DNA of 64,000 nt from Athalassotoga saccharophila (GTDB lineage Bacteria; Thermotogota; Thermotogae; Mesoaciditogales; Mesoaciditogaceae): NCBI RefSeq assembly GCF_009936215.1, contig NZ_AP019551.1, positions 248,001 through 312,000 of the forward strand, read 5' to 3'. This document shows, in pieces, positions 1 to 42,179 of the stretch. The notes below the pieces were generated by a model, which saw nothing but the letters and a program-made list of their open reading frames with translations, made no database searches and had not been told where the DNA came from. The translations under genes were made by a program, and so were the position numbers. Each line of letters opens with the position of its first letter. Position 1 is the first letter of the stretch.

Positions 1-391
1 AGAGTGTGTTGAATGGCTGAAACTGCGTAGGAGATCTATCGAAGATCCATCTTTTCCCGACCTTATCAAGAGCCTTTGACATGGAATTGAATTTATACGC
101 ATTTCTGTAATGCATCGGCATTCCGATCATGTATCCACTCTTGTCTAAAAGTCCGAAATCAACTCCCCATGTGTCTATTCCAACGGATCCAAGATCGCCC
201 TTTTGAAGTGCAATGTCTATTGCTTTTAGAATGTTCGAGTAAATTTCTAAAATATTCCAATAGTCGACGCCATTTAGATTGACGGAAATATTTGGAAATC
301 TGTAAATCTCTTCAATATGGATTTTATCTTTCAAAGACAGTAAAAAGGCTTTTCCTCCAGATGCACCGATGTCTATTGCCAGAAAATTCAA
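1..391 (-). CDS. rhaB: Rhamnulokinase (FGGY family), N-terminal part
   Basis: This is the first 130 codons of a sugar kinase that continues beyond the left edge of the window. The frame opens with a TTG at 389-391, three bases after the stop of the isomerase gene, and reads LNFLAIDIGASGGKAFLL, the phosphate-binding loop of FGGY kinases. Further on it has GIDTWGVDFGLLD and GMPMHYRN, which resemble the WGVD and LPYHYR stretches typical of rhamnulokinases. RhaB phosphorylates L-rhamnulose to L-rhamnulose 1-phosphate in the cytoplasm. Its place directly after rhamnose isomerase in a same-strand operon with an aldolase and a sugar transporter supports the substrate. The specificity is inferred from context and motifs; another FGGY pentulose or deoxyhexulose kinase is possible. 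Confidence 0.85.
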   Translation of the reverse strand, partial: MNFLAIDIGASGGKAFLLSLKDKIHIEEIYRFPNISVNLNGVDYWNILEIYSNILKAIDIALQKGDLGSVGIDTWGVDFGLLDKSGYMIGMPMHYRNAYKFNSMSKALDKVGKRWIFDRSPTQFQPFNTL

Positions 392-393
392 GA

Positions 394-1527: not shown

Positions 1528-1532
1528 CTTTA

Positions 1533-4500
1533 TCACCTCTTAATTTCCATAATGTCACCTATTCCAAAAGGAATAAAGGTGTAATCTTTGGTGAATCTTT
1601 TGAAATCTCTGAATGTCCCGGGTCCTACGAATTCGTCTTTGAGAATATTTGCAATCCAGTTTGGCCCCATAAGGTTGAAAAGCGTCGTCGATGCGATGAC
1701 TTTTATCTCGTTTTCTCCTTCTTTGATAAGTTCTGTGACATCAAACACGTATGACTTCCAGTACTTCACGCCCGAAGACTTTTCGTTCACGTACAATTCA
1801 ACATAGGCAGCGTTAACGTCTGTCAATTCCAAATAAACTTTGTCCTTTGATTTTGATTGGATTTTCAACTTTCCACTGAATTCGGTCTTACCCGCATAAA
1901 AAGGATATCCTGATTTTGTCAGATTCAATCCTATCTTTTTCGATTTTCCATCTATTGCGAATTCACCAAATCTTTCTCCTAAAACCTCAAAATCTCCAAT
2001 TATGTATGCCGTATCTACCTCTGTCGATTCGTAATCTTTGAAGTTTTCAACTCTGACATGTGTCCCCGGGCCTGTTACGTTGTTGTACTTCTTGCCTTCT
2101 ATCATGAGCGTATTCTTTCCCTTCTTTAAAAGGGTAGTTATTGGGATCTTTGTGAAGTTCACACCCTTCCAGCTTTTATCCGGATCGAATGCGCCCATCT
2201 CGCCACGCTTTTTCAAAGGCTTTACCTCTGTTTGATTGAGAATTATTCTGCCTAAATTTTCTGCAAGTTCAACCACGGCAAAGAGTTCTCCTTTTGGGAC
2301 ATTTACAACGTCAAACGAATAAATTGCCCGAAATGAAGTGCCATCCTGTGCATCGTAAAAAGGCTGCCATGCTTTTGATATGTGATCATCTTCTAAAATC
2401 CGTTTCCCGTCTATCTCAAGCGTGACTTTATCAAGCGGCATAACATTTGGCTCTAATGGCTTTACGTCCCAGTTCATCTTTACAAATTCTCTTTTAAGAT
2501 TACCTTCAAATTCTATTCCAGAGTCTAAAAATTGTGGTGCCATAGGTACATCAATGCTTTCATTTGGATAATAAATCATCATACTTGAGGCCGGATAAAA
2601 CTTCACATCTATTTCCTGGCGACCATGCTTTGTACTGTAAGGAATTTTGTAGATATTTCCCGTCATTGCGTCTAAAAGATATGGAACCTTTGTATCTGAC
2701 AAGGAGGTTTTTGCATTTATTTCTCTTGATTTGTCGGTATTGGCAAAAAAGATAGTTTTTCCGTCTTTTGAAGTTCTTTGATGACATATTATTTTTTCTG
2801 CGTTTTGGCCTGTGACCATGTCGATTACATTTATTCTATCTTTGTAATAGGTGTCTGTGATTTGCAAAGCATCATTTACGGAAGAGACGACAATGGCATC
2901 TTCTGGAATTTTAACCTCTCTTTTTATTCCGTCTATTCTTGTAAGCGTCGGAGAGATAAAAATAAGCCTTTTGGGATTTAATTTTGAAAATTCAGACAGC
3001 AATTCAAATGTCTTTGATCTCAGAGTCAAAGATGGTGGCACGATGACAGTTGAGTAAGCGTAATTGCCAATTACAAGTTTACCATTCTCAATCTTTGCAT
3101 GCTTTTCCATTATGATTTCATCACCGTAGTGAAAGTCCAACTTTGACGCTATCAAAGACTTCGAAAGTGTCTCGAGAGGTTTATCGTAAAGATTTGTCTC
3201 GACCATGAAATTGTCCTTTTCATGAAGTGGTGAGTATTCACTCCAAACACTCGAGATTGGATGGATGACCAAAATATCCACATTTCTTTTGCCCTGCGTG
3301 GCAAAGTAACTTATGCGTGCCATGTAATCTGCAAAATGTCTTTCTCTGTCCCACCACGGCTGCTGATAAAATAAATTCGCTGGATAATCTCTTTTTCTCT
3401 CTCCTCTCATAGAATAAAGTGAAAGATGCGGATTTATAAAATTTATTCCAAGTGCAACAAGCCAGTCGGCAATCCACTTTCTATGGTAAAAACTTGACTG
3501 CTGTCCGATTGTCCCGAAAGCCTCACACAACATACGCTCTTTTCCAAGTTGATCTCCAACAGATGTCAGCTGTTTGACAGTCAACGTATTACCAATAGGT
3601 TCGAGATTTCTTCCGAGTTTATCTATCCCCGGCTGATGCATGAACTCGTAGTGAGGCATGGCAGCGCCAATCCATTGTGTTTGGGAAACAAGTGTATCTT
3701 CGGCCATAAAATGACCTGTCATTTTAAGATTGTTTTTCTCGCACCAATCGAAATATTGTTTTGTCCAGCTTTCCAAAAATAGCCTTGTCGCCGTATCGTA
3801 AAAGTCAAATCTTATCTTTTGGTAATCCCCTTCGTCGAAAAACAATTCTTTCAAATGATCTTCAATTGAATATCCTTTTATTTTCTTGAAATATTCTGGA
3901 AGAAAATCAGACCACGGTACAGCCGGTACATTGTAGAGATTATCCATAAGATAACAGGGCTCATCCATGAAAATGCCTGGTATGACATTACCAAAATATT
4001 CTCCGCATGATTTTTTGTATTTTTCATGAGTTGATTCAAGAAAGGCCTTCGTTACATTCGGATTCATAAGATCAACGTAACTTGTTTTGTTGAACCAAAG
4101 ATCACCTAAAGGAGCCACATTGACACAAATGCTGTAATGGTGTCCTTCATGATCAAACTCGGATAGAACCTTATCATTTTCGGTTGACTTTGTATCTGCG
4201 ATCAAAATAAGCGCGTGATTTCTGTAAGGCTTGCCTAATTTTGGCACCTCTCCGCCGGCGAAACCAGATGGCCACTTATCCTCATCATAAAGCCATGCGT
4301 AAGTTTTCGTCTTTTGTGCCGCTTTAACAGAGGCGCGTGTTAATTTCATCCAATCAGAAGAAAGATAGCCAGTTATAAGGCCAACTCGAGTGTGAAGAAA
4401 TGAACCACCATATCCTTTATTTGCAAATTCATCTGTTTGCCTTTCAATTTCGTCTTTGTCTAATTTGTCGTTTAAACTGAAGAATGGATAGGCTCTGTAA

Positions 4501-4535
4501 ATTGCTTTAGGTAACTTGAAAGATTTTAAATTCAT
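1533..4535 (-). CDS. GH106-like alpha-L-rhamnosidase
   Basis: A 1000-residue protein without a signal peptide, so probably cytoplasmic. The N-terminal catalytic region carries WLYDEDKWPSGFAGG at residues 81-95, a hallmark of the GH106 rhamnosidase group, followed by a conserved acidic motif FMDEPCYLMD and the HYEFMHQPG segment. The C-terminal third is beta-rich and looks like galactose-binding/beta-sandwich modules. GH106 enzymes release terminal L-rhamnose from oligosaccharides and plant or polysaccharide glycans by hydrolysis. The operon position, directly upstream of rhamnose isomerase and downstream of the transporter, fits cleavage of imported rhamnosides. The ATG is preceded by a weak AGAGTGA. 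The family call is by motif recognition; an HMM search against GH106 and related unclassified relatives would settle it. Confidence 0.75.
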   Translation of the reverse strand: MNLKSFKLPKAIYRAYPFFSLNDKLDKDEIERQTDEFANKGYGGSFLHTRVGLITGYLSSDWMKLTRASVKAAQKTKTYAWLYDEDKWPSGFAGGEVPKLGKPYRNHALILIADTKSTENDKVLSEFDHEGHHYSICVNVAPLGDLWFNKTSYVDLMNPNVTKAFLESTHEKYKKSCGEYFGNVIPGIFMDEPCYLMDNLYNVPAVPWSDFLPEYFKKIKGYSIEDHLKELFFDEGDYQKIRFDFYDTATRLFLESWTKQYFDWCEKNNLKMTGHFMAEDTLVSQTQWIGAAMPHYEFMHQPGIDKLGRNLEPIGNTLTVKQLTSVGDQLGKERMLCEAFGTIGQQSSFYHRKWIADWLVALGINFINPHLSLYSMRGERKRDYPANLFYQQPWWDRERHFADYMARISYFATQGKRNVDILVIHPISSVWSEYSPLHEKDNFMVETNLYDKPLETLSKSLIASKLDFHYGDEIIMEKHAKIENGKLVIGNYAYSTVIVPPSLTLRSKTFELLSEFSKLNPKRLIFISPTLTRIDGIKREVKIPEDAIVVSSVNDALQITDTYYKDRINVIDMVTGQNAEKIICHQRTSKDGKTIFFANTDKSREINAKTSLSDTKVPYLLDAMTGNIYKIPYSTKHGRQEIDVKFYPASSMMIYYPNESIDVPMAPQFLDSGIEFEGNLKREFVKMNWDVKPLEPNVMPLDKVTLEIDGKRILEDDHISKAWQPFYDAQDGTSFRAIYSFDVVNVPKGELFAVVELAENLGRIILNQTEVKPLKKRGEMGAFDPDKSWKGVNFTKIPITTLLKKGKNTLMIEGKKYNNVTGPGTHVRVENFKDYESTEVDTAYIIGDFEVLGERFGEFAIDGKSKKIGLNLTKSGYPFYAGKTEFSGKLKIQSKSKDKVYLELTDVNAAYVELYVNEKSSGVKYWKSYVFDVTELIKEGENEIKVIASTTLFNLMGPNWIANILKDEFVGPGTFRDFKRFTKDYTFIPFGIGDIMEIKR

Positions 4536-4716
4536 TTAAATCACTCTTTTTATTTGATGGATTCTAATGAATATTTGGAATAAAAACAATCGGATGCTCG
4601 AAACGTTAGTAGTACATAAATATATGAACTTTATTTATATCTGTACCCTTTCAATGTTTTTCTAAGTTCATTAGTAACTTTATATTCTTTCGAGAATTCT
4701 CAGTATTCTCGTTTAC
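4536..4716 (-). other. Spacer with small inverted repeat
   Basis: This stretch separates the ASRT gene from the rhamnosidase gene. It has no open frame that looks coding. At 4691-4711 there is a 7-bp inverted repeat CGAGAAT / ATTCTCG around a 7-base loop, 6 bases downstream of the ASRT stop codon. It has no U-run, so it is more likely an mRNA 3-prime stabiliser or processing point than a terminator. The rest is A+T-rich with no convincing promoter. Confidence 0.35.
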
Positions 4717-5088
4717 TTATCCTGAATATCCCATCGTTGACATATAAGCTAAATTAGGCTGTCGTGTATCCATTCTTGAATGTTGCACTACTATTTTTAA
4801 ATCACTCTCTACTTTTATTGAAAAAGGGACAGATCTTTCTAATTTTATACCTAATAATGTTTCTGAATTATCTAAGCGTAAATGTAAAGTCCTTTCTGCT
4901 CCAATTATAATCTCTTCTGATTTTACAGGTTCTTTATCTTCAAAGTAAAAAGTAAATATAACATGTGCTGGTTTATTATTAAGATTAAGAATGCACGTGG
5001 ACTCATGTCCTGGGAGTTTCTCATCTCCTATTGGTGGTAAATATGCATCTGGTATAACCCAGATATAGGCTCCTATCTCTTTATTCAC
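4717..5088 (-). CDS. ASRT-family protein (Anabaena sensory rhodopsin transducer-like)
   Basis: A 123-residue soluble protein. Its middle and C-terminus match the Anabaena sensory rhodopsin transducer family closely: HESTCILN, AHVIFTFYFEDKEPV, ERTLHLRLD and IVVQHSRMDTRQ correspond to conserved blocks of that family. Family members form beta-rich tetramers; the Anabaena protein binds sensory rhodopsin and DNA. No rhodopsin gene is present here. From memory, the Thermotoga maritima homologue TM1070 lies next to rhamnose genes, so a role in sensing or handling sugars is plausible, but the function is unknown. The start is a GTG with AAGAGGCG upstream. It sits between the binding protein and the rhamnosidase, in the A+T-rich part of the operon. 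Confidence 0.8.
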   Translation of the reverse strand: MNKEIGAYIWVIPDAYLPPIGDEKLPGHESTCILNLNNKPAHVIFTFYFEDKEPVKSEEIIIGAERTLHLRLDNSETLLGIKLERSVPFSIKVESDLKIVVQHSRMDTRQPNLAYMSTMGYSG

Positions 5089-5130
5089 AATTTACGCCTC
5101 TTTTCGAGATAGCAGTTTTTACTAACACTA

Positions 5131-5164
5131 TGTCACTGGTACATGAAAAAATGTACCAGTGACA
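5131..5164 (-). terminator. Perfect 14-bp hairpin after the binding-protein gene
   Basis: The arms TGTCACTGGTACAT (5131-5144) and ATGTACCAGTGACA (5151-5164) pair perfectly around a six-base loop, 10 bases after the binding-protein stop codon. No U-run follows on the minus strand, so termination would be partial at best. Such hairpins after binding-protein genes often protect the upstream mRNA and lower expression of distal genes (general knowledge); here the distal genes are ASRT, rhamnosidase, isomerase and kinase. Confidence 0.7.
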
Positions 5165-5174
5165 TCGAAAAATT

Positions 5175-6200
5175 TCAGAAATTAAATTGATTTACATTCT
5201 GTGCTGTAAAAATGAAAGGTTTTCCCAGTAGAACTACATTGTTTGGCCCAACTTTATAGAATCCTAATTTCCCTCCTCCAATATATTCAGTACCGTTTAT
5301 ATTACTTATCATCATTCCTCTTACCAAGTCATTAGCTGCGTAAAGAGCCAAGTAACCTAGATCAACTGGGTTCCACAATACATCCTGTTTAACAACACCG
5401 GCCTGGAAATATTTTTTCATATCATTTGGAGTTGCAAGCCCTACAACATACAACTTCCCGCTAAGTCCTGCATCTAAAACGGCTTGTGCAGCCATTGGAA
5501 AAGCAACAGACGTTATTGCTACAATAGCCTTAGCTTGAGGATAATAAGCATTTATTATTGTCTGGGCATCTTGATACGAAGGGCCTGGTAAGTCTCCGCC
5601 ATATTGAATTGTAACTATGTGCATTTTAGGATATGATTGTGCCATATACTCTTTCATAGCCGCAATCCAAGCATTCTGATTAGCTGCATTTGGGTCAGCA
5701 CTTAAAATAGCAATACCTGCGTCAGGACCAACGTTTTGAGCAACTAAGTCAATTAGAGTTCTCGCAAGAACGTTAAAATCAACCTGATTTATAAACAGAT
5801 CTCTTGCTGCTGGATCTGCGACGTCTGAATCAAAACCAACGACTTTAATACCTGCTGCCATTGCTTGCTTCAAAACTGGAATCAAGGCTTGAGCATCATT
5901 TGACGAATAAAGCAGAGCATCTGGGTGCAACGCTATTATGCTTGTTATCGTCTTAATTTCATCTTCTGTGTTAGCTGTACTTGGCCCCATATAATAGAAC
6001 TTAACAGGCAATCCTAATTCATTTAATTCGGCAACTGCTTGTAAAGCTCCTTGTTCACATGCAGTAAAATATGGGGCGCCTGTGAATTTTGGAACCATAT
6101 AAATTGTTATCGGTGATGCCGAATTTGTAGTTGAACCGAAACTTGCTATACTTACTATACTTAGCATTACAAGTACCGATATAAGTATACCTTTTCTCAT
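5175..6200 (-). CDS. rhaS: ABC sugar-binding protein, RhaS/LsrB-like
   Basis: A secreted periplasmic-type binding protein of about 341 residues, class I sugar-binding (peripBP) fold. The N-terminus is a signal peptide with a basic MRKG start, a hydrophobic stretch and a cleavage region near SIASFGST. Motifs such as YMVPKFTGAPYFTACEQGA, LLYSSNDAQALIPVL and VVGFDSD are typical of the rhamnose/autoinducer-2 binding protein group. A GTG nine bases upstream (6209) overlaps the Shine-Dalgarno AAGGAGGTG; the ATG at 6198-6200 is the better start. It delivers substrate to the two permeases and the ATPase encoded upstream. Rhamnose is inferred from the operon; autoinducer-2 or a rhamnose disaccharide cannot be excluded. 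A 221-base leader precedes it and a strong hairpin follows it. Confidence 0.8.
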   Translation of the reverse strand: MRKGILISVLVMLSIVSIASFGSTTNSASPITIYMVPKFTGAPYFTACEQGALQAVAELNELGLPVKFYYMGPSTANTEDEIKTITSIIALHPDALLYSSNDAQALIPVLKQAMAAGIKVVGFDSDVADPAARDLFINQVDFNVLARTLIDLVAQNVGPDAGIAILSADPNAANQNAWIAAMKEYMAQSYPKMHIVTIQYGGDLPGPSYQDAQTIINAYYPQAKAIVAITSVAFPMAAQAVLDAGLSGKLYVVGLATPNDMKKYFQAGVVKQDVLWNPVDLGYLALYAANDLVRGMMISNINGTEYIGGGKLGFYKVGPNNVVLLGKPFIFTAQNVNQFNF

Positions 6201-6421
6201 ACAATACACCTCCTTGATTTATAGGGATCTTTCAGAATACTTTGATTTTTTCATATTTAAAAGTCAGAATTCTTAATTCACCTCCTTTCACAAGTTGTGT
6301 AGCAAGACGATTATAATAGTTGACACAAATTTTGATTTTTATTTAAATGATTTTTTGTCTTAATCAAGAATTTTCAATAATTGTATCCTGAAAGGCTCCC
6401 AATATACTCTTGTGTATTTTT
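6201..6421 (-). promoter_or_regulatory. Leader region before rhaS with orphan Shine-Dalgarno
   Basis: This 221-base stretch between the last permease gene and the binding-protein gene is unusually long for the operon. On the minus strand it contains a -10-like TATAAT (6310-6315) without a recognisable -35, and a strong Shine-Dalgarno AAAGGAGGTGA (about 6283-6293) that is not followed by a normal start codon: the only short frame behind it would begin with ATT and encode about 12 residues. A second Shine-Dalgarno, AAGGAGGTG, serves rhaS itself. The region may be an internal promoter, a leader peptide or an mRNA processing site. Confidence 0.4.
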
Positions 6422-7381
6422 CTATTTACTGATAGTCTGTATTGTTTTTACTTTACTCTTTCCAACATATTCATAAAAGATTATCGAACTAATTAATATG
6501 GTACCAACAACTATTTCCTGAACTGTTGCTTGAATATTTGCAAGTGTTAACCCAGCATCAATAAGTGCGATTATCAAGACTCCCAAAACTGTTCCAAGAA
6601 CACTACCAGAGCCTCCTTTAACATCTGTCCCACCTAAAACAGAAGCTGCAACGACATTCAATGCCCCAGAAGAAAAAGCACTTGAAGTTGCCGTAGCTGT
6701 TCTCGATGTGTATATTACACCTGCTAATCCAGCTAATAGGCCTGCTAATATGTATATTGTCATTTCTATCTTCTGAACTGGTATTCCTGAATAAAAAGTG
6801 CCCTTTTCATTATTTCCTATTGCAAAGAGATACATTCCAAAGCTTGTTTTTGAAACGATTATATAGAATATTACAGCTATAATTGCCCATATTAAGAGGG
6901 AATAAGGTATCCCTACAAAAGATCCTTCTCCTAAGTTGAGAAAACTTTGTGGAAACCCGGATACACCTTTCCCTCTATCTATACCAACTGCCAATCCAGC
7001 ATAAGCCGCCCAAGTACCTAAAGTGGCTAGAAGAGCTGGTATCCTAAGTTTGGATACTAAAAAACCATTGAATAGGCCTGCTATTCCGCTTACAATGATT
7101 GCTAGGATAACTGCAAGCCATATATTCATTCCCCAAAATTTCCATAAGTATCCCATAATTACACCAGTAAGAGCTAAAGTAGAAGTAATTGAAAGATCTA
7201 TACCTCCTGTGATCATTATCAAAGTCATAGGAATAGACATTATTCCTAGTTCAGCAGAAAGTTGCAATATTTGGAACAAAGTTGAAATATTCAAAAATGC
7301 TTTTGATAGAAAACTCATTATAACGATGACAAGCACCATTATTCCTAAGAGAATGAGTTCTATTTTTTTCATGTTTCTCAT
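6422..7381 (-). CDS. ABC sugar permease (RbsC/RhaQ-type), second subunit
   Basis: A 319-residue integral membrane protein with about eight to ten hydrophobic helices and almost no soluble domain, characteristic of the branched ribose/xylose/rhamnose permease family. The conserved EAA-like cytoplasmic region reads AIGNNEKGTFYSGIPVQKIE, and the C-terminal part has the glycine-rich VVAASVLGGTDVKGGSGSVLGT block of RbsC-type permeases. It pairs with the permease at 7378-8331 to form the heterodimeric channel for the binding protein and two-domain ATPase. Its start overlaps the stop of the upstream permease (ATGA), implying translational coupling. The symbol (rhaP or rhaQ) is not assigned because the two paralogues cannot be told apart by eye. 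Confidence 0.85.
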   Translation of the reverse strand: MRNMKKIELILLGIMVLVIVIMSFLSKAFLNISTLFQILQLSAELGIMSIPMTLIMITGGIDLSITSTLALTGVIMGYLWKFWGMNIWLAVILAIIVSGIAGLFNGFLVSKLRIPALLATLGTWAAYAGLAVGIDRGKGVSGFPQSFLNLGEGSFVGIPYSLLIWAIIAVIFYIIVSKTSFGMYLFAIGNNEKGTFYSGIPVQKIEMTIYILAGLLAGLAGVIYTSRTATATSSAFSSGALNVVAASVLGGTDVKGGSGSVLGTVLGVLIIALIDAGLTLANIQATVQEIVVGTILISSIIFYEYVGKSKVKTIQTISK

Positions 7382-8331
7382 ATTTTTAGTACACCACGCT
7401 TTCTTCTGTTTTCTCTTAAAACATCGCTAATAATAGCAAGAAGAATTATCAACCCTTCTATAGCTTCGCTCCAAGTTGCCGGTATTCCCAAAAAAATAGT
7501 AACAGATGATATTTCTGTAAGTAAAATGGCTCCAAGAATATTTCCTTCTACTTTTCCTCTTCCACCCAAAATACTTGTGCCACCAATAACTGCTGCTGCA
7601 ATGACTGGAAGTACTAAATTTGATCCTATGTTAGATGAAACAACGAAAAATCTTGAGGCACTTAAGAACCCTGAAAATCCACTAAACATTCCACTCAACA
7701 TTAACGCATAAAAAATTGTTCTATTCGGATTAATTCCAGCAAAAATGGCCGCTTCAATATTTGTTCCACACGCATAAAATTTTCTGAAAAGCGGCATATT
7801 TCTGACGAAAAATACCATTAATATACTTACACCAAAACCAATCCATATATCTAAACTTATTCCCAATACTGGATAATTCGATATTTGCCACTTGTTTGGC
7901 AAGTTATATATCCACATTCCATTTGTCCACCACAATATAAATCCTTCTAAACCAATCATTGTGCCTAATGTTGTTATTAATGAAGGTATACGAAATTTAG
8001 CAGTTATAAATCCATTGAGTGCTCCCAATGCGAGGCCAATGCCTATGCTCCAAAGAACAACTAAAAACATTGGTGCTCCCATGACAGCAAATTGTGCCGA
8101 GGTCACAGCACTTATAGTGTAAATAGAGCCAACTGAAAGATCTGCATTTCCAAATCCGTTAATAATAACGAAGGATTCTCCAATGACCACTAACACCATT
8201 ACAGCTGTATTTCCAAGTATAGAAGATATATTTCTAAAACTTGTAAAATTAGGATTTACCGCTTCAGCAATAACACCTAATCCTATTATAGTAATTACTA
8301 ATACAATTTCTCTTCCCCATTTACTAATCAT
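7378..8331 (-). CDS. ABC sugar permease (RbsC/RhaP-type), first subunit
   Basis: A 317-residue polytopic membrane protein of the RbsC/XylH/RhaP family. The EAA-like loop is seen in ACGTNIEAAIFAGINPNRT, and the C-terminal glycine-rich stretch reads PVIAAAVIGGTSILGGRGKVEG. With the downstream permease it forms the membrane part of a sugar ABC importer. It overlaps the ATPase gene by eight bases and the next permease by four, so the three are translationally coupled. The region is more A+T-rich in synonymous positions than the flanking aldolase and isomerase genes, suggesting that the transporter block has a different history. Confidence 0.85.
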   Translation of the reverse strand: MISKWGREIVLVITIIGLGVIAEAVNPNFTSFRNISSILGNTAVMVLVVIGESFVIINGFGNADLSVGSIYTISAVTSAQFAVMGAPMFLVVLWSIGIGLALGALNGFITAKFRIPSLITTLGTMIGLEGFILWWTNGMWIYNLPNKWQISNYPVLGISLDIWIGFGVSILMVFFVRNMPLFRKFYACGTNIEAAIFAGINPNRTIFYALMLSGMFSGFSGFLSASRFFVVSSNIGSNLVLPVIAAAVIGGTSILGGRGKVEGNILGAILLTEISSVTIFLGIPATWSEAIEGLIILLAIISDVLRENRRKRGVLKI

Positions 8332-9862
8332 TTCTACTTTCTCCTACAAAACTTTTTACAGCAAAACTATCATCTCTTTCCTCAAGAGTAGACAAGGCTA
8401 TTAATTCATCTATTGACAAGTTTGGTTTTTTAAGTTCTCCAGCAACTACGCCTTTTCTCAAAACAATTATTCTATCACACATATTTACAAGTTCATCAAA
8501 ATCCGAAGATATAAAAATGACACTTCTTCCTTCTTCTACAAATTTATTTATCCATGTATAAATTTGAGCCTTACTACCTACATCTATTCCTTGTGTTGGC
8601 TCATCCATAATAATTATGCTTGCATCTCTAACTAACCATTTTGATATAACAATTTTTTGTTGATTACCACCAGATAAATGCAGTACTTGAAAATCTGGAA
8701 ATGGTGGCTGTATCTCGAAGTCTTTGATGGCTTTATTTGTTAAATCAGATCCTTTTTTTGGATCCAGAAACCCGTTCTTGTTTTTTATAAGATCAACATT
8801 TGGCAGACTTATGTTAAATTTAATGCTTTGTTGCAAAATCAACCCTTCACGTTGTCTATCCTCAGGAATTAATACTATACCTTCCTTCACAGCATCTGAA
8901 GGTGCTTTTATATTTATTTTTTTATTGTTTAAAAATATACTTCCATCGGTAGCAGGTGTTATACCGAATAATGTATTCGCCAGCGTCGTTCTTCCAGAAC
9001 CAAGAATTCCCGCTATACCTAAGACTTCACCTTTTTTTAGTTCCATGGAAAAACTTCTCAAAATGCCACTATTTATGTTTTCTACTTTTAAATTTATGCT
9101 ACCAATTTTAGGATCTCGTCTTGGGTAAAAAGTTTGAAGTTCTCTTCCTATCATTGCTTTAACTATGCTACCTAAATTCAAGTTTGAAATCGAGTCTGTC
9201 ATAACAACTTCTCCATTTCTAAAAACCGTTACAGTGTCAGCCAATTCAAAAATTTCTTCAAGTAGGTGACTTATATAAATTATGCTTATTCCTTTATTTT
9301 TGAGCTTTTTGATATTTTCAAACAATATTTTTGTTTCATCAGATGTAAGAGCAGCTGTAGGTTCATCCAAAATCAATATTTTTCCTTGTTTTAGAAGAGA
9401 TCTCAATATTTGCAACAGTTTTTGCATAGGCGCACTAATATTCTTTGCCTCTTGATCAAGTGGAATGTTTATGCCAACCTCATTCATGATTTTCAACGCC
9501 TGATTTCTAAAGTTTTTCCAATTTATTAACTTAATGGAAGAAGAGGAATAATTATCAATAAACATATTCTCAAGGACTGTTAAGTCGGGGAAGATTATTA
9601 AGCTTTGATGCACAGTTGATATTCCCAAAGATATAGCATAATTAGGGTCTTTTATTTCTACCTTCTTTCCATCAAGGAAAATGTTACCACTATCAGGTTT
9701 ATAAACCCCAGCCAAAATTTTGACTAATGTTGATTTACCCGCTCCATTCTGACCAACTAAAGCATGAACTTCTCCTTTTTTAAGTTGGAAATCTACATTT
9801 TTTAAGGCCTGAACACCAGGAAAAGATTTTGATAATTTTTCTGTTCGTAAAATCTCATCCAA
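8324..9862 (-). CDS. rhaT: Two-domain sugar ABC ATPase (RbsA/RhaT-type)
   Basis: A 512-residue cytoplasmic ATPase with two fused nucleotide-binding domains, as in ribose, xylose and rhamnose importers. Domain 1 has Walker A GQNGAGKST, a degenerate signature near ISAPMQKL and Walker B ILILDEPTAAL. Domain 2 has the usual degenerate P-loop GILGSGRTT, signature LSGGNQQK and Walker B IIMDEPTQGID. The frame can extend to a TTG at 9892 overlapping the aldolase gene, but a TTG at 9860-9862, preceded by GGAAGAGG at good spacing, gives a normal N-terminus (MDEILRTEKLSKSFPG). It energises import through the two downstream permeases. Rhamnose specificity is inferred from the operon. Confidence 0.88.
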   Translation of the reverse strand: MDEILRTEKLSKSFPGVQALKNVDFQLKKGEVHALVGQNGAGKSTLVKILAGVYKPDSGNIFLDGKKVEIKDPNYAISLGISTVHQSLIIFPDLTVLENMFIDNYSSSSIKLINWKNFRNQALKIMNEVGINIPLDQEAKNISAPMQKLLQILRSLLKQGKILILDEPTAALTSDETKILFENIKKLKNKGISIIYISHLLEEIFELADTVTVFRNGEVVMTDSISNLNLGSIVKAMIGRELQTFYPRRDPKIGSINLKVENINSGILRSFSMELKKGEVLGIAGILGSGRTTLANTLFGITPATDGSIFLNNKKINIKAPSDAVKEGIVLIPEDRQREGLILQQSIKFNISLPNVDLIKNKNGFLDPKKGSDLTNKAIKDFEIQPPFPDFQVLHLSGGNQQKIVISKWLVRDASIIIMDEPTQGIDVGSKAQIYTWINKFVEEGRSVIFISSDFDELVNMCDRIIVLRKGVVAGELKKPNLSIDELIALSTLEERDDSFAVKSFVGESRND

Positions 9863-9881
9863 TTTTACCTCTTCCTTTACT

Positions 9882-10526
9882 TTAATAATCAATTACTTTA
9901 TACGATGATAATTGATTCAAAAAAGCTTTTATGTCTCTCTCTTTAATTTCATTTATATTTTCATCTGCCATTTTAAGTGTAAGTACAACCTTTGCAACAA
10001 AATCAAGTGTTTCCAGTTTTTCATAGACCGCTTTGATGCTTTTTCCTATCACTGTCACGCCGTGATTTTGAAGAATGAAAACATCCTTTCCGGCTTTCAA
10101 TTCCGGTGTAAATACATCTGCAAATTCCTGTGTGCCTGGCATTCTGTATGGAAGATACGTGATGTCTTTGAGCAAAAGTGCGGCCTCCGGAAGCGTGTTT
10201 ATGGGGATCTTTTCACCACTTACGGCAAAGGCAGTTGCGTAAGCAGGGTGGGCGTGAAAGACACAATTTATATCCGGTCTCTCTTTGTATATGAGAAAAT
10301 GCATCTTGCGCTCTGACGAAGGTTCTCCGTCACCTTCTATGACTTTATCATCCAATGTTATTTTTATGATATCTTTAGGCTTAAGAAAATGCTTTATGCT
10401 CGAGTGAGGAGTTATATATATGGTGTTGGCATCTGCTCTTACGCTCATGTTTCCGCCGGTGGATTCTGTGAGGCCTCTGTCCCATGCAAGTTTAGAATAC
10501 TCGACAAGTTCTTCAACGATATTCAT
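9882..10526 (-). CDS. Class II aldolase, FucA-like (rhamnulose/fuculose 1-phosphate)
   Basis: A 214-residue zinc aldolase/epimerase-family protein that cleaves a deoxyketohexose 1-phosphate into dihydroxyacetone phosphate and L-lactaldehyde. With the ATG at 10524-10526, which follows GGAGG at five bases, catalytic Glu73 (GEPSSERKMHF), zinc ligands His91 and His93 (FHAHPAY) and His155 (LQNHG) fall on almost the same numbers as in E. coli FucA (Glu73, His92, His94, His155). It is thus FucA-sized, not the longer E. coli RhaD type. As first gene of a rhamnose operon it most likely acts on L-rhamnulose 1-phosphate. A promoter and a palindromic operator lie directly upstream. Confidence 0.82.
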   Translation of the reverse strand: MNIVEELVEYSKLAWDRGLTESTGGNMSVRADANTIYITPHSSIKHFLKPKDIIKITLDDKVIEGDGEPSSERKMHFLIYKERPDINCVFHAHPAYATAFAVSGEKIPINTLPEAALLLKDITYLPYRMPGTQEFADVFTPELKAGKDVFILQNHGVTVIGKSIKAVYEKLETLDFVAKVVLTLKMADENINEIKERDIKAFLNQLSSYKVIDY

Positions 10527-10541
10527 AATTTCCTCCAATCT

Positions 10542-35716: not shown

Positions 35717-35866
35717 CTTTCGACCTCCTTGCAAAGATTTTTCCCGCTTTGGGTATTTTGCGAAGATTATATATAACAAAGGTAAATATAAAACTTTGTT
35801 ATCATTAAACTTTGATGTTTAAGTCATTAATCTGTTATTACACCTTAATGTTTTGAATTTTTCTTT

Positions 35867-35912
35867 TTGATCCCGTCCCCTCGATGTGATATAATAGAGC
35901 AAACGTTTGCTC
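35867..35912 (+). promoter_or_regulatory. Promoter and perfect LacI-type operator
   Basis: TTGATC (35867-35872), 17-base spacer and TATAAT (35890-35895, preceded by TGA) form a strong promoter. GAGCAAACGTTTGCTC (35897-35912) is a perfect 16-bp palindrome with the central CG typical of LacI-family sites. It covers the transcription start, so the LacI protein should repress itself and the aldo-keto reductase genes behind it. Confidence 0.88.
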
Positions 35913-35925
35913 ACAGAGGGATAAA

Positions 35926-36933
35926 ATGGCTACAATGCGAGATATTGCCAAACTCTCAAAGGTTTCTGTTTCCACCGTTTCGAGAGTTTTGAGCGGGAAA
36001 GGAAGAGTAAGTGCCGAAAAAAGAAATGAAATAATCAACCTTGCCAACCAATTCCACTACGTCCCAAATTATCACGCCAAATGTATGACAAAAAAAGGCG
36101 TTATCACTGTAGGCCTTGTAGTCCCTGATATATCGAATCCTTTCTTTTCAAAACTCACCATGGGAATAGAATCAGAACTCAAAGATAGCGCGCTTTTGAT
36201 ACTGATGAATTCTTTTCGTGACATCGAAAGAGAAAAGAAACTCTCCCTTCTTCTTAGAGACAACGGTGCAAAGGGAATAATAATGGGAAATTCACATGTC
36301 GAAGATGATTTCGTATTTGAAATTTCGAAGTACATTCCCGTCGTGGTCTTCGATAAAGAGTACAATCTACCAAATATAAGCACGATAAAGTTGGACAACA
36401 TCTACGGCGCTTATCTTGCAACGAACCATCTTATTGAAATCGGTTGCTCAAATATAATTCATTTTGGTGGATTTGACGATCTTGATGTATCAATTCAGAG
36501 AAAAGAGGGTTATAAAAAAGCCATCAGAAAGGGAATGCAACCTTACGTAGTTCCGACTGGATATGACGAAAGATCGGGATACGAAAAGGCAAAAAAGGTT
36601 TTGTCATCAAAAAAATTCGACGGGGCCTTTTGCATGAATGATCTCGTCGCGATAGGAGTTTTAAAGGCGGCAAAAGAAATGGGAATCCGGGTTTCACAGG
36701 ATCTTAAAATAATAGGCTTTGACGATACAGAACTTTGCGAGGTTGTGACTCCTACGCTTTCATCCATTCACCAGCCGATTGAAGAAATGGGAAGGGCAGC
36801 AGCACGAGCACTTTTGAAGATGATCGAGGGAGAGGAAAGTTCGAGATCGTATCTTTTTTCTCCATCATTAATCGTTAGGGGTTCAACTTTACCTAAAAGA
36901 GGTGATAAAGATGCAAAAGAGGAAGTTGGGTAA
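35926..36933 (+). CDS. LacI-family transcriptional repressor
   Basis: A 335-residue DNA-binding protein. The N-terminal helix-turn-helix reads MRDIAKLSKVSVSTVSRVLSG, followed by the hinge helix region VPNYHAKCM; the rest is a periplasmic-binding-protein-like effector domain (VGLVVPDISNPFFSKL, GFDDTELCE, PTLSSIHQP). The effector is probably a sugar or sugar phosphate. The operator over its own promoter fits autoregulation. Its 3-prime end overlaps the first aldo-keto reductase gene by 23 bases, so repressor and enzymes form one operon. Confidence 0.9.
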   Translation: MATMRDIAKLSKVSVSTVSRVLSGKGRVSAEKRNEIINLANQFHYVPNYHAKCMTKKGVITVGLVVPDISNPFFSKLTMGIESELKDSALLILMNSFRDIEREKKLSLLLRDNGAKGIIMGNSHVEDDFVFEISKYIPVVVFDKEYNLPNISTIKLDNIYGAYLATNHLIEIGCSNIIHFGGFDDLDVSIQRKEGYKKAIRKGMQPYVVPTGYDERSGYEKAKKVLSSKKFDGAFCMNDLVAIGVLKAAKEMGIRVSQDLKIIGFDDTELCEVVTPTLSSIHQPIEEMGRAAARALLKMIEGEESSRSYLFSPSLIVRGSTLPKRGDKDAKEEVG

Positions 36934-38023
36934 AACCGGAATCGAAGTGTCGATTTTGGGTCTTGGTGGATTTCATATGCTTGAAATCTCAAAAGAACTC
37001 GTATCTAAATTGATGGATATTTATCTTGAAGCGGGCGGAAATTACGTCGAGACTGCTGCTGAATATGGAGACGGAGAATCTGAAAAAAAGATGGCATACG
37101 CACTCAAAGGAAGAAGATCAAAAGTTGTACTGGCAAGCAAATGTCACGCGAGAGATTACGAAGGTGCCAGAACTTTCATCGATAGAACTCTATCAAATCT
37201 TCAAACTGACCATCTCGATCTTCTGTTTTTGCACCACGTCACAAGCCAAAAGGATGTAGATGCTTTGTTATCGAGGCCATCGGCGCTCGATTACGTGCTT
37301 GAGGCAAAGAAAAAAGGACTTGTAAGGGCCATCGGAATTTCTTTTCACGGCCTGCCGGATTATGCCCTGAAAGTTTTGAAGTCTCAGGATCTTGACGTTG
37401 TCATGACACAGTTTAACTATTACGACAAATTCAACTTCCCTTCCACATTTGATACACTCCTTCCTTACGCGAGATCTCGTGGAATGGGAGTTGTTGGCAT
37501 GAAGGCCTTCGCAGATGGCTATCTGTATCGTTCGGTCGAGGATGCACTGAGGTATTCTCTCTCTCAGGACATAGACACAATGGTCGTTGGATCCAATTCA
37601 GAAGAAATGCTTTTAAAGGATATATCCATAGTTCAATCTTTTAAGCCCATGACACAAAAGTCCATGGACAACCTGTATTATAGAGCTCCAGAACTCGGTA
37701 ATTACGTCTGCAGATTATGCAACAAATGCCTGCCATGTCCGGAGGGCATAGATATCCCGACAATCTTCAAGTATGAAGGTTGGTACGACAGGCAAATGAG
37801 AGATTACAAACCACACGAAGCGCCTGATTACGCGCTCAGAGAAAGACTTGCCTTCTGGTATGGAAATCAAAATGAGGCAAAAGAGGCTTATAAAAAACTC
37901 AATAAAACCTATAAAGATTGTACCAATTGCGGAATATGCGAAGAAAGATGTCCTTACGATTTACCGGTAGTCGAGAAGTTGAAACTTGTCGATTTCAAAC
38001 TTGGAAATGGAGAAATTTTTTGA
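36911..38023 (+). CDS. Aldo-keto reductase with C-terminal ferredoxin-like domain (1)
   Basis: A 370-residue fusion. Residues 1-260 form an AKR TIM barrel (KLGKTGIEVSILGLGG at the start, catalytic Tyr in AAEYGDG, Lys in LASKCH, His in LFLHHV). The usual catalytic Asp of DTA is Glu here (VETAAEYG). The C-terminal part has two four-cysteine clusters, CRLCNKCLPC and CTNCGICEERC, each able to hold a [4Fe-4S] centre. The ATG at 36911 follows GAGGTGAT; the GTG at 36902 lies within that site. It probably reduces or oxidises a carbohydrate carbonyl with NAD(P)H, with iron-sulfur centres for electron transfer. Substrate unknown; a similar fusion lies at 41.0 kb. Confidence 0.85.
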   Translation: MQKRKLGKTGIEVSILGLGGFHMLEISKELVSKLMDIYLEAGGNYVETAAEYGDGESEKKMAYALKGRRSKVVLASKCHARDYEGARTFIDRTLSNLQTDHLDLLFLHHVTSQKDVDALLSRPSALDYVLEAKKKGLVRAIGISFHGLPDYALKVLKSQDLDVVMTQFNYYDKFNFPSTFDTLLPYARSRGMGVVGMKAFADGYLYRSVEDALRYSLSQDIDTMVVGSNSEEMLLKDISIVQSFKPMTQKSMDNLYYRAPELGNYVCRLCNKCLPCPEGIDIPTIFKYEGWYDRQMRDYKPHEAPDYALRERLAFWYGNQNEAKEAYKKLNKTYKDCTNCGICEERCPYDLPVVEKLKLVDFKLGNGEIF

Positions 38024-38034
38024 GGAGGTACTTT

Positions 38035-39027
38035 ATGAATTACAAAAATCTTGGTAAGACCGGATTAAAAGTTTCGGAATTGTGCCTTGGAACGATGAAT
38101 TTTGGAAATCCAACAGATGAAAAGACTTCCATAAAAATAATAGATAAGTTCATAGAAGCGGGAGGAAATTTCATAGATACGGCTAACGTTTACAACCATG
38201 GAATATCGGAAGAGATCGTCGGAAAGGCTCTCAAGAATAGAAGGGACTCCGTGGTACTTGCGACAAAGGTTCATGGGAAAATGGGCCCGGGTCCAAATGA
38301 CGGAGGAAATGGGAAAAAGCATATTCTTCACGAAGTGGAGAATAGCCTTAGAAGACTCCAAACCGATTACATAGACCTTTACTGGATCCATAGGCCCGAT
38401 CCATCAACTCCCATCGAGGAAACTCTCGAGGCACTCGATTATCTTGTAAAGAAAGGATATGTGAGATTTATAGGTACATCTACATTTCCGGCATGGCAGA
38501 TAGTCGAATCTCTTTGGATAAGCGATAAAAGAAATCTGGTCAAATTCGTTGCCGAACAACCACCTTACAGCATAATAGAAAGGCAGATCGAAAACCGTGT
38601 ACTTCCAATGTGCGAACATTTTGGCCTTGGTGTTGTCTCATGGAGTCCTTTGGCCGGGGGGTGGCTTGCCGGCAGGTACAAAAGGGGAAATCCCGCTCCA
38701 GAAGACAGCAGAGCAGCACAGCATCCGGAATGGAGAGACATGGCAGTTGAAGCCAAAAGTGCAGAACAACGTTTTAGAATCATAGAAGAGATAGAAAAAT
38801 ACGCAAAGAAATTAAACACTTCGATGGCCGCGCTTTCTCTTGCGTGGGTTATGTCAAATCCTGTTATAACGGCACCAATAATAGGGCCAAAACATGAGGA
38901 ACATTTAGACGATTATCTTAAGGCAACTGAAATAAAGGTCCCCGAAGAGTTTAAAAAGAGAATAGATGATCTGATACCTCCAGGAACTTCATTATGGCAA
39001 AGTGAAAATGCCTCTTTCGTGATATGA
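38035..39027 (+). CDS. Aldo-keto reductase (2)
   Basis: A 330-residue NAD(P)H-dependent oxidoreductase with a complete AKR catalytic set: Asp and Tyr in FIDTANVYNHG, Lys in LATKVHG, His in YWIHRPDP. The C-terminal region has the cofactor-binding pattern ITAPIIGPKHEEHLDD. It resembles the YajO/Kv-beta-like subgroup that acts on sugar-derived aldehydes. The ATG at 38035 follows AGGAGG; a longer frame runs back into the upstream gene but has no ribosome-binding site. It is the second of four AKR genes in the LacI operon. Confidence 0.88.
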   Translation: MNYKNLGKTGLKVSELCLGTMNFGNPTDEKTSIKIIDKFIEAGGNFIDTANVYNHGISEEIVGKALKNRRDSVVLATKVHGKMGPGPNDGGNGKKHILHEVENSLRRLQTDYIDLYWIHRPDPSTPIEETLEALDYLVKKGYVRFIGTSTFPAWQIVESLWISDKRNLVKFVAEQPPYSIIERQIENRVLPMCEHFGLGVVSWSPLAGGWLAGRYKRGNPAPEDSRAAQHPEWRDMAVEAKSAEQRFRIIEEIEKYAKKLNTSMAALSLAWVMSNPVITAPIIGPKHEEHLDDYLKATEIKVPEEFKKRIDDLIPPGTSLWQSENASFVI

Positions 39028-39041
39028 AAGGAGTGATTTAG

Positions 39042-40007
39042 ATGGAATACAGGAAAGTAGGAAAATGGGGATTGAAGATAAGCGAATTGGGATTTGGTAC
39101 ATGGCTGACATTCGGGCCCCAGTTAGACGTTGACACATCGAAGAAGATAATAAGAGAAGCGTTTAAAAACGGGATAAACTTTTTTGACACGGCCGAGGCG
39201 TATCAGGGAGGGATGGCCGAATACATATTGAGTCAATCTCTCAAAGAGTTTAGAAGGGAAGACCTTGTGGTATCGACGAAGATATTCTGGGGAGGGCCCG
39301 GACCAAATGACACGGGGTTATCGAGGAAGCATCTTGTGGAAGGTTTGAGGAATTCACTAAAGAGGCTTGAGATGGAATATGTGGACATAGTGTACTGTCA
39401 CAGGCCGGACCCGACGGTGCCGATGGAAGAGGTAGTAATGGGGATGGATTATCTGATAAGAAGCGGTATGGCTCTGTACTGGGGGACATCTGAATGGAGC
39501 GCGGCCGAGATAGAGGAGGCGCACAAGGTATGCAGGGAATGGAAATGCATCGAGCCTATAGTTGAACAGCCGCAGTACAACATGCTCAAAAGAGACAGAG
39601 TCGAGAAGGAATACCTTCCTATATACGAAAAGTATGGAATGGGACTGACCATATGGAGTCCTTTAAATGCCGGCATACTAACAGGAAAATACAATGAAGG
39701 TATCCCAAAGGGAAGCAGGCTTGACGTATTCAAAGAGAATGGCGGCCTTAAGGGAAATATAAATGAGGCCGGAGGTTTTAACGAAAAAACGATAAAAAAG
39801 GTAAAAAAACTTACAAAGATAGCGGAAGGCCTTGGAGTTAAGATGTCTCAACTTGCCATTGCGTGGGTTTTGAAAAATGACCATGTGAGCAGTGCCATTT
39901 TGGGAGTAAGTAAAATCGATCAACTTTACGAGAATTTAGAATCCGTAAAGGTCAAGGAAAAACTTACGCCAGACGTTATGAAAGAAATAGAAGATATTTT
40001 AAGGTGA
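39042..40007 (+). CDS. Aldo-keto reductase (3), Kv-beta-like
   Basis: A 321-residue AKR with Asp/Tyr in FFDTAEAYQGG, Lys in VSTKIFWGG and His in VYCHRPDP; the WSPLNAGILTGKYNEG segment and the C-terminal SAILGVSKIDQL are typical of the potassium-channel beta-subunit-like subgroup, which includes L-glyceraldehyde 3-phosphate reductases. It is similar in length and motifs to the preceding AKR, suggesting an old duplication. The first 600 bases use more G/C-ending and GGG codons than its neighbours, while the rest looks like the local background. AAAGGAG precedes the ATG. Confidence 0.88.
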   Translation: MEYRKVGKWGLKISELGFGTWLTFGPQLDVDTSKKIIREAFKNGINFFDTAEAYQGGMAEYILSQSLKEFRREDLVVSTKIFWGGPGPNDTGLSRKHLVEGLRNSLKRLEMEYVDIVYCHRPDPTVPMEEVVMGMDYLIRSGMALYWGTSEWSAAEIEEAHKVCREWKCIEPIVEQPQYNMLKRDRVEKEYLPIYEKYGMGLTIWSPLNAGILTGKYNEGIPKGSRLDVFKENGGLKGNINEAGGFNEKTIKKVKKLTKIAEGLGVKMSQLAIAWVLKNDHVSSAILGVSKIDQLYENLESVKVKEKLTPDVMKEIEDILR

Positions 40008-40011
40008 TATG

Positions 40012-41028
40012 ATGTTTGGATCGCTAAAAAAACGTCTTATCGCACTGTTCATAATTTTGGGCACCTTTAACGCTATAGTTTGGTTTTTGATGGTAAAAAT
40101 GAGCATCCTTAATTCCACTTTGATCGGGATAGGTGCCCTTGCCTATTTCTTCGGTTTGCGCCATGCCTTTGATGCAGATCATATAGCCGCAATAGACAAT
40201 GTCACGAGAAAATTAAGGCAGGAAGAAAAGAAACCCGTCGGGGTGGGTTTCTTTTTCTCACTTGGTCATTCTACGGTTGTAATACTACTTTCTCTCGCAC
40301 TGGTCTTCGCGATAAGAGATGTAAAGGGCCAGATGGGATTCTTGCAACAATGGGGAGGCCTTGTTGGGACCATTGTATCGGCAAGTTTCCTGACGGCCAT
40401 AGGTCTTATGAATTTCGTGATCTTCAAGCGCCTCAGACATATTTTTATCGAAAGTAAAAATGGTTCGAAATCTGAAGATGTAAATAAAGGAATAGAAGAG
40501 TTGTTGAATAAGCGTGGATTTTTCTCAAACATTTTCAGATTTTTGTTCAAAAACATAGACAAAAGTTGGAAAATGTATCCAATAGGTTTTCTATTCGGTC
40601 TTGGATTTGACACGGCAACGGAAGTCGCGATCCTCGGGATCTCTGCCACGATGGCGCAAAATGGGAAGATGCCTGTATGGGAAATAATGATCTTTCCATT
40701 CCTATTTACGGCAGGAATGAGTTTGATGGATTCTCTCGACGGCGTCGCAATGTTAAAGGCTTACGACTGGGCGATGGTCGATGGAATGAGAAAACTTTTT
40801 TTCAACATGACGATCACGGGTATGTCAGTTCTCGTGGCACTTATAATAGGATTCATAGAGTGGATTCAGGTCATTGGCCTTCAGTTGAATCTCGGAGGTC
40901 CATTTTGGAATGGAATTGAAAATCTTGATTTTGGGGTACTTGGTGTAATCGTGGTGGCATTGATGATCTCGACATGGATCATAGCCTACCTTTATTACAA
41001 AAAAGCCTTAAGTTGGAGGGAAAGATGA
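40012..41028 (+). CDS. NiCoT-family nickel/cobalt permease
   Basis: A 338-residue membrane protein with about eight helices, of the HoxN/NixA/NicT family. The signature in the second helix, RHAFDADHIAAIDN, contains the HX4DH pattern essential for nickel or cobalt transport; GFLFGLGFDTATEVAILG and AGMSLMDSLDGVAM (parts given) are the other conserved blocks. Of two adjacent ATG codons, the second (40012) is better spaced from AAGG. It lies inside a run of aldo-keto reductase genes and overlaps the next one by four bases, an unusual setting that suggests a metal-dependent step in the same process. Confidence 0.9.
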   Translation: MFGSLKKRLIALFIILGTFNAIVWFLMVKMSILNSTLIGIGALAYFFGLRHAFDADHIAAIDNVTRKLRQEEKKPVGVGFFFSLGHSTVVILLSLALVFAIRDVKGQMGFLQQWGGLVGTIVSASFLTAIGLMNFVIFKRLRHIFIESKNGSKSEDVNKGIEELLNKRGFFSNIFRFLFKNIDKSWKMYPIGFLFGLGFDTATEVAILGISATMAQNGKMPVWEIMIFPFLFTAGMSLMDSLDGVAMLKAYDWAMVDGMRKLFFNMTITGMSVLVALIIGFIEWIQVIGLQLNLGGPFWNGIENLDFGVLGVIVVALMISTWIIAYLYYKKALSWRER

Positions 41029-42158
41029 TATACAGAAAATTCGGTAAGATTGGTATCGAGGTTTCAGAACTTGGATTTGGATGCATGAGACTACCGGTAA
41101 TCGACGGAGATTACGGAAAGATAGACGAAAAAAAGGCAACTGAGATGTTAAGGTACGCAATAGACAACGGCGTCAATTACGTCGACACAGCCTATCCTTA
41201 TCACAAAGGAATGAGCGAGATCTTCGTGGGAAAAGCGCTAAAAGATGGGTACAGGGAAAAGGTTTATCTCGCCACGAAATCGCCTGTGTGGCTTGTGAAT
41301 GAAAGGATCGATTTTGATAAGTATCTTGACGAGCAACTCAAAAAACTTCAAACGGATCACGTAGACATGTACTTACTCCATGCCCTTGGAAAGGACAGAT
41401 GGTCAAAGATAAAATCACTTAATGTCTTCGATTTCGTCGAAAAGGCTAAAAAAGATGGAAGGATAAGGAATATAGGTTTTTCATTCCATGATGAGTTTAA
41501 GGTCTTTAAAGAGATAGTCGATTCTTACGATTGGGACTTTTGCCAGATCCAACTCAACTATTTAGATGAACATTTTCAGGCAGGAATAGGTGGTCTAAAA
41601 TACGCCTCCAAAAAAGGTATGGCAGTTATAATAATGGAGCCCATAAAGGGAGGAAAACTGGCCGGAAAATTGCCTTCAGAGGCGATAGAGATATTCAAAG
41701 ACACGAATTTTAAAAGAACGCCTGCCGAATGGGCATTAAGATGGGTCTGGGATCATCCGGAAGTGTCTCTTTTGCTTAGCGGAATGAGTGATATGAATCA
41801 GGTTATAGAAAATGTGAAATCTGCAAATGTAGAACCGAATTCATTGACTACCGAGGAAAGAGAAGCAATAAATAAAGTAAAGGACATCTTTAAAAGGCGT
41901 CTCAAGGTAGATTGCACATCATGTAATTACTGCATGCCTTGTCCAAATGGAGTACACATTCCAGACATTTTTAGGCTTTACAACGATGCCTCTCTTTTCG
42001 ATGAATTCGAAAATTCCAAAAGAGAGTATAAGAATTTCATCGAAGGTCATTTTGACGCCTCTAAATGTATAGAATGCGGAGACTGTGAGAAGGTCTGTCC
42101 ACAACATTTGCCGATAAGAAGGCTTTTGAAAGAGGCAGATGCCGCCTTAAGGATGTAA
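41025..42158 (+). CDS. Aldo-keto reductase with C-terminal ferredoxin-like domain (4)
   Basis: A 377-residue fusion: AKR barrel (KFGKIGIEVSELGFGCMRLP; YVDTAYPYHKG; LATKSPVW; YLLHALG) and a C-terminal iron-sulfur part with CTSCNYCMPC and CIECGDCEKVC, suited to two [4Fe-4S] centres. This is the widespread predicted-oxidoreductase AKR class found in anaerobes. The ATG at 41025 overlaps the NiCoT stop codon (ATGA) and follows TGGAGGG. It retains the catalytic Asp that is replaced in the first fusion protein. It is the last gene of the LacI operon; a new leaderless-type promoter begins a few bases after its stop. Confidence 0.88.
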   Translation: MIYRKFGKIGIEVSELGFGCMRLPVIDGDYGKIDEKKATEMLRYAIDNGVNYVDTAYPYHKGMSEIFVGKALKDGYREKVYLATKSPVWLVNERIDFDKYLDEQLKKLQTDHVDMYLLHALGKDRWSKIKSLNVFDFVEKAKKDGRIRNIGFSFHDEFKVFKEIVDSYDWDFCQIQLNYLDEHFQAGIGGLKYASKKGMAVIIMEPIKGGKLAGKLPSEAIEIFKDTNFKRTPAEWALRWVWDHPEVSLLLSGMSDMNQVIENVKSANVEPNSLTTEEREAINKVKDIFKRRLKVDCTSCNYCMPCPNGVHIPDIFRLYNDASLFDEFENSKREYKNFIEGHFDASKCIECGDCEKVCPQHLPIRRLLKEADAALRM

Positions 42159-42162
42159 AATT

Positions 42163-42179
42163 TGGTATAATTTCACTTG
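42163..42179 (+). promoter_or_regulatory. Extended -10 promoter abutting the radical SAM start
   Basis: TGGTATAAT (42163-42171) is an extended -10 ending eight bases before the ATG at 42180. No Shine-Dalgarno is present, so the mRNA is probably leaderless. Confidence 0.6.

Follow-up and report, generated by a model that had tools for sequence, protein, structure and literature searches.

What might a LacI-type repressor control in an operon that joins four aldo-keto reductases (AKRs), two of them fused to ferredoxin domains, to a nickel/cobalt permease? The question is raised by positions 35867-42158 of the window, the 64,000-nucleotide stretch of the Athalassotoga saccharophila genome analyzed here. 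A sequence-only reading had described this locus as a LacI operator followed by lacI, two plain AKRs, two AKR-2[4Fe-4S] fusions and a NiCoT permease, and its gene content was borne out by six plus-strand open reading frames matching Pfam and NCBIfam profiles (LacI, four Aldo_ket_red, two Fer4 diclusters, NicO and TIGR00802). The features follow one another in the order promoter, operator, lacI, AKR-2[4Fe-4S] fusion (AKRFd1), AKR2, AKR3, NiCoT and a second fusion (AKRFd4). The intergenic spacings are -23, 11, 14, 4 and -4 nt, with a 23-nt overlap between lacI and AKRFd1 and an ATGA overlap between NiCoT and AKRFd4, and a single transcript therefore fits all six genes. No known RNA or riboswitch was found above threshold near the operon. 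At 22 nt past it lies a gene for a radical SAM protein without a specific family (42177-43805, plus strand), which adjoins the operon throughout the genus; since this gene has its own -10-like sequence and is missing from the operon of the sister genus, the operon plausibly ends at position 42158.

Table 1. Positions in the window of the features of the LacI-controlled operon and of the L-rhamnose operon.
Feature	Position	Strand	Remarks
Sigma-70-type promoter TTGATC-17-TATAAT, TG before -10	35867..35895	+	Best-scoring plus-strand promoter-like site
LacI-type operator GAGCAAACGTTTGCTC	35897..35912	.	Unique in genome; relatives' versions before lacI
LacI-family repressor, autoregulated by position	35926..36933	+	PF00356 + PF13377
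AKR-2[4Fe-4S] fusion 1 (AKRFd1)	36911..38023	+	PF00248 + Fer4
Plain AKR 2 (AKR2)	38035..39027	+	PF00248; closest solved relatives DON 3-epimerase chain D / DepB
Plain AKR 3 (AKR3)	39042..40007	+	TIGR01293 353 bits, just below cut-off 365
NiCoT nickel/cobalt permease	40012..41028	+	PF03824 6e-94; TIGR00802 349.4 bits, cut-off 333
AKR-2[4Fe-4S] fusion 4 (AKRFd4)	41025..42158	+	Intact tetrad, 8 cluster cysteines
L-rhamnose isomerase	394..1536	-	TIGR02635 above cut-off; solved homologue 2hcv
GH106-like protein, RhaS-like binding protein, two permeases, ATPase, class II aldolase (rhamnose operon remainder)	1533..10538	-	

The scan found 16 promoter-like sites, with 16 expected by chance; the promoter call is backed by where the site lies and by a sister species (L092) in which TATAAT and operator are arranged in the same way. 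The operator GAGCAAACGTTTGCTC is a palindrome immediately 3' of the -10 box, a placement from which LacI would repress its own operon. A perfect 16-bp palindrome is expected by arithmetic about once per 64 kb and is weak evidence alone; a scan of the host genome found no second copy of GAGCAAACGTTTGCTC at up to 2 mismatches, and versions with 1 to 4 mismatches lie just 5' of lacI in five other genomes (GAACAAACGTTTGCTC in G008, GAGCAAACGATTGCTC in G009, GAGCAATCGTTTGCTC in G010 and GGTAAAGCGTTTGCTC in two genomes of the sister genus). The operator is thus kept at the regulated promoter across genomes, as befits a LacI regulon. Orthologues of the repressor were detected in 22 other Thermotogota genomes (51-91% identity). 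Five of them, in other families (L144, L145, L146, L147 and L148; 52-57% identity), are located within or at the head of sugar ABC transporter clusters that also contain PIG-L-like and Gfo/Idh-like genes, and the regulator has thus come to serve different operons. Near the host lacI, a gene for a family 5 solute-binding protein (33836-35779, minus strand) is divergently oriented and a gluconolactonase-like (SGL) gene (32446-33330, minus strand) lies close by; no operator copy was found at either.

The proposal that these genes form a single LacI-controlled unit was supported, and the unit recurs in several of the 103 genomes of the phylum Thermotogota used for comparison. The gene order is common to 4/4 genomes of the genus, which rules out an insertion of NiCoT in one strain: G009 carries the full order LacI-AKRFd1-AKR2-AKR3-NiCoT-AKRFd4, and G008 and G010 carry the same genes divided over contig ends. 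Two genomes of the sister genus present the order LacI-ORF-ORF-ORF-NiCoT-AKRFd4-AKRFd1-DUF362Fd, followed in one of them by AKR3, where DUF362Fd stands for a DUF362-2[4Fe-4S] protein, and a third retains ORF-ORF-ORF-NiCoT-AKRFd4. A profile scan of one of these genomes (L089) identified the three ORFs as LarE (302 bits, cut-off 150), LarB (289, cut-off 175) and LarC (221 and 154, cut-offs 90 and 50). In the host genus, larE-larB-larC-DUF362Fd constitutes a separate operon in 4/4 genomes.

This joining of larEBC to the operon bears on the destination of the imported metal. The permease combines the NicO domain and the TIGR00802 match with the HxxxxDH motif (HAFDADH) of the NiCoT (HoxN/NixA) family. 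NiCoT was found in 7/103 Thermotogota genomes, and larB and larC in 15/103 each; 7/7 NiCoT genomes carry both, an overlap with a hypergeometric probability of 3e-7 that ignores kinship, the seven genomes representing one family. Other nickel sinks were rejected, since [NiFe]-hydrogenase has no match in the host, with short weak matches alone in its relatives, and a Prismane-family protein, which also occurs in relatives without NiCoT, does not track the permease. Given larB and larC in all NiCoT genomes, the sister-genus operon, and the larEBC and larA genes of the host, NiCoT most likely supplies nickel for the nickel-pincer nucleotide (NPN), which is among the most recently described nickel cofactors, and the larB/larC co-occurrence makes nickel rather than cobalt the best reading of its cargo. 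The sequence-only reading had invoked nickel or cobalt for one step of the operon's own route; the need for metal is supported, but the step is most likely the assembly of NPN by LarB, LarC and LarE, outside the operon.

A candidate user of NPN is encoded close to the window. The host's only Lar_N protein, LarA (contig 1: 245631-246920), maps about 1.1-2.4 kb to the left of the window in an L-rhamnose operon that spans window positions 1-10538 (minus strand), continues on contig 1 to the left (L189) and lies outside the LacI operon. Its genes encode, in order, class II aldolase, rhamnose-type ABC transporter, GH106-like protein, L-rhamnose isomerase, rhamnulokinase, LarA, an AldA-type aldehyde dehydrogenase read as lactaldehyde dehydrogenase, EtfB, EtfA and an oxidase. 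LarA has the Lar_N and LarA_C domains and the His/Lys/His and Gln/Lys residues of NPN enzymes, and it matches solved racemases; it falls below the curated lactate racemase cut-off (NF033504, 380.7 bits against 460), and lactate is its probable substrate by virtue of the operon. The oxidase is of the GlcD type, with the LctD subunit of NAD/ferredoxin lactate dehydrogenase as its top solved homologue. The genes of this operon fit the pathway from rhamnose through L-lactaldehyde, L-lactate and D-lactate to pyruvate, and it is possible that the lactate step is electron-confurcating within deoxysugar catabolism. LarA homologues with the H-K-H residues also occur in four near-complete genomes without larB and larC (L198 in G011, L200 in G048, L151 in G018 and L153 in G020).

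The reading that we prefer, to which we assign a probability of roughly one half, is that the LacI operon serves a small branch of anaerobic sugar catabolism concerned with 2-hydroxy carbonyls and 2-hydroxy acids. NiCoT would import nickel, LarC would use it to build NPN, and NPN would serve the LarA-type racemase encoded with the rhamnose genes, on a route from L-rhamnose to L-lactaldehyde, L-lactate, D-lactate and, through an LctBCD/EtfAB-type dehydrogenase, pyruvate. The AKRs and AKR-2[4Fe-4S] fusions would have C3 carbonyls from this branch, such as lactaldehyde or methylglyoxal, as their substrates, with a presumed inducer relieving repression by LacI, and the fusions would exchange electrons with ferredoxin, thereby coupling it to carbonyl/alcohol chemistry; a flavin-free AKR would then have to split hydride into single electrons. 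Several observations count against this reading, among them the LarA score below the lactate racemase cut-off and, as described below, AKRFd pairs in f7 genomes and the lack of AKRFd neighbors at LarC loci of Synergistota. In addition, the larEBC and larA genes of the host are unlinked to the LacI operon, G009 (96% complete) possesses larBC and the LacI operon yet has no LarA match, and LarA homologues retaining all NPN residues occur in genomes without larBC. No copy of the operator was found within 4 mismatches at the larEBC or rhamnose/larA loci of the host.

As read from an alignment, the catalytic tetrad (Asp/Tyr/Lys/His) is intact in AKR2 and AKR3, the latter having AKR6D1 / Kv-beta as its closest solved relatives. 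AKRFd1, with orthologues at 71-88% in families f1 and f7, carries Glu in place of the catalytic Asp (VETAAEY). In AKRFd4, both the tetrad (D54, Y59, K85 and H119) and the cysteines (C297, C300, C303, C306, C348, C351, C354 and C358) are invariant among 34 diverse homologues, and the predicted model (mean pLDDT 94.9) finds its best fold matches among AKRs. The fusions belong to a family common in anaerobes, which we take to be COG1453; a search for a solved structure of this family returned none, and neither a function for it nor any COG1453 paper was found in the openly licensed literature searched.

To place AKRFd4 in a wider context, we examined 483 ORFs within 4 kb of its homologues at 80 loci, picked by AKRFd4 similarity alone. 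LarB and LarC were the commonest neighbor families, at 8 loci each of the 80, many of which come from one archaeal family, and an ABC-ATPase cluster tied with them at 8. The two families flank AKRFd4 in differing gene orders in Thermotogota, in Methanosarcinaceae and in another Methanomicrobia archaeon; in Synergistaceae and Desulfococcus the neighbor is LarC without LarB. On a tree the larB/larC neighbor label requires 8 changes, at least 7 of them forced by supported branches. The converse, LarC-centered view was dropped, because LarC, although present in 35/50 AKRFd4 genomes, is mostly non-adjacent to AKRFd4, and 0/30 LarC loci sampled in the phylum Synergistota had an AKRFd neighbor; LarC occurs in 132/151 genomes there, so that its genome-level co-occurrence is uninformative. 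This comparison across genomes suggests that the fused reductases work near the NPN pathway. The openly licensed literature searched yielded no link between AKR-ferredoxin fusions and NPN, nor any paper treating aldo-keto reductases and the nickel-pincer nucleotide together, and the recurrent AKR-ferredoxin-larBC neighborhood seems to be previously unreported.

These neighborhoods also weigh on an account, which we consider doubtful, in which NiCoT feeds NPN while all four AKRs serve in the broad detoxification of methylglyoxal and other carbonyls derived from sugars, being co-expressed under a sugar repressor without taking a direct part in NPN chemistry. AKR2, AKR3 and AKRFd4 do match methylglyoxal/glyceraldehyde-phosphate reductase families, below cut-off, and AKRFd4 and AKRFd1 are adjacent in f7-family genomes that have neither NiCoT nor larBC, from which it follows that the fusions are not obligate NPN partners; yet LarB and LarC are top AKRFd4 neighbors in several phyla, and the fusion pair accompanies NiCoT in two genera. 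It is considerably less probable that the operon performs an oxidation-reduction epimerization of a sugar or polyol hydroxyl, with the fusions as ferredoxin-linked partner and nickel incidental, in line with the interconversion of sugar or polyol carbonyls that the sequence-only reading put forward. The relationship of AKR2 to the DON 3-epimerase reductase and DepB would agree with such a role, as would LacI control and the company that LacI orthologues keep elsewhere with sugar ABC transporters and Gfo/Idh-like dehydrogenases, but the operon is devoid of any sugar transporter, kinase or hydrolase, and in the sister genus larEBC takes the place of sugar genes.

The remaining alternative assigns the ferredoxin-bearing proteins to NPN itself: AKRFd and DUF362Fd would service or use the cofactor, through its re-reduction or repair, or with DUF362Fd carrying NPN on a conserved lysine as a non-LarA enzyme. 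DUF362Fd (L188:7860-8948, minus strand) shares an operon with larEBC in 4/4 genomes of the genus and 2/3 of the sister genus, and it retains H-x9-K-x15-H at LarA spacing. Moreover, DUF362 and DUF2088 belong to one Pfam clan, that of LarA (PMC11770544), and their profile models cross-match; about 15% of surveyed genomes make NPN through larBCE but lack a LarA that would use it (PMC11796402). Against this, the motif-bearing DUF362 subfamily is also present in genomes without larBC (G011, G005 and G037-G043), another DUF362 subfamily likewise keeps H-x9-K, DUF362 and larC co-occur poorly, and no match emerged when shallow alignments of DUF362Fd and LarA were compared by hhalign. We accordingly no longer count DUF362Fd as an assured NPN enzyme; the occurrence of the motif without larBC makes NPN binding by this protein a low-probability reading. 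The alternative as a whole is improbable. It is equally speculative that the AKR-2[4Fe-4S] fusions and DUF362Fd form an as yet undescribed NPN branch, in which NPN, held by the DUF362 lysine, or the product of an NPN enzyme would pass electrons to ferredoxin-type clusters; if true, such a redox branch would explain some of the genomes in which NPN is made although LarA is missing.

Under the preferred reading, in which the operon serves a C3 branch of sugar catabolism, the presence of a nickel importer in a sugar-type operon could be explained by deoxysugar catabolism via lactate, which may need a nickel racemase. The repeated presence of a large uncharacterized AKR-ferredoxin family beside larB/larC also provides a concrete, testable partner for the NPN pathway. 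The earlier notion of an undescribed system applies to the way in which these genes are combined and to the association of AKR-ferredoxin fusions with NPN genes, but not to the components, whose families are all known: the LacI/NiCoT/AKR-ferredoxin/larEBC assembly, not found in the openly licensed literature searched, is a new combination of known parts.

Compared with known systems, the locus is closest to the LarA/LarBCE system for NPN, with which it shares larE, larB and larC above NCBI cut-offs in the sister genus, a nickel importer, and a host LarA homologue in which the catalytic residues and those that tether NPN are kept. It differs in that larEBC, larA and NiCoT of the host occupy three loci, with NiCoT sharing its operon with AKRs and AKR-ferredoxin fusions, and larEBC sharing another with a DUF362-ferredoxin gene. 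As in the LctBCD complex of Acetobacterium woodii, a GlcD-type, LctD-like oxidase adjoins EtfA, EtfB and LarA; in contrast, the host version resides in an L-rhamnose operon behind AldA, and its lactate is therefore probably made internally. The fusions resemble the AKR-2[4Fe-4S] family in their AKR barrel, in the intact tetrad of AKRFd4 and in two 4-Cys motifs. AKR3 and AKR2 are similar in sequence to Kv-beta/AKR6 and DepB-like AKRs, respectively, but have an operon context that resembles neither.
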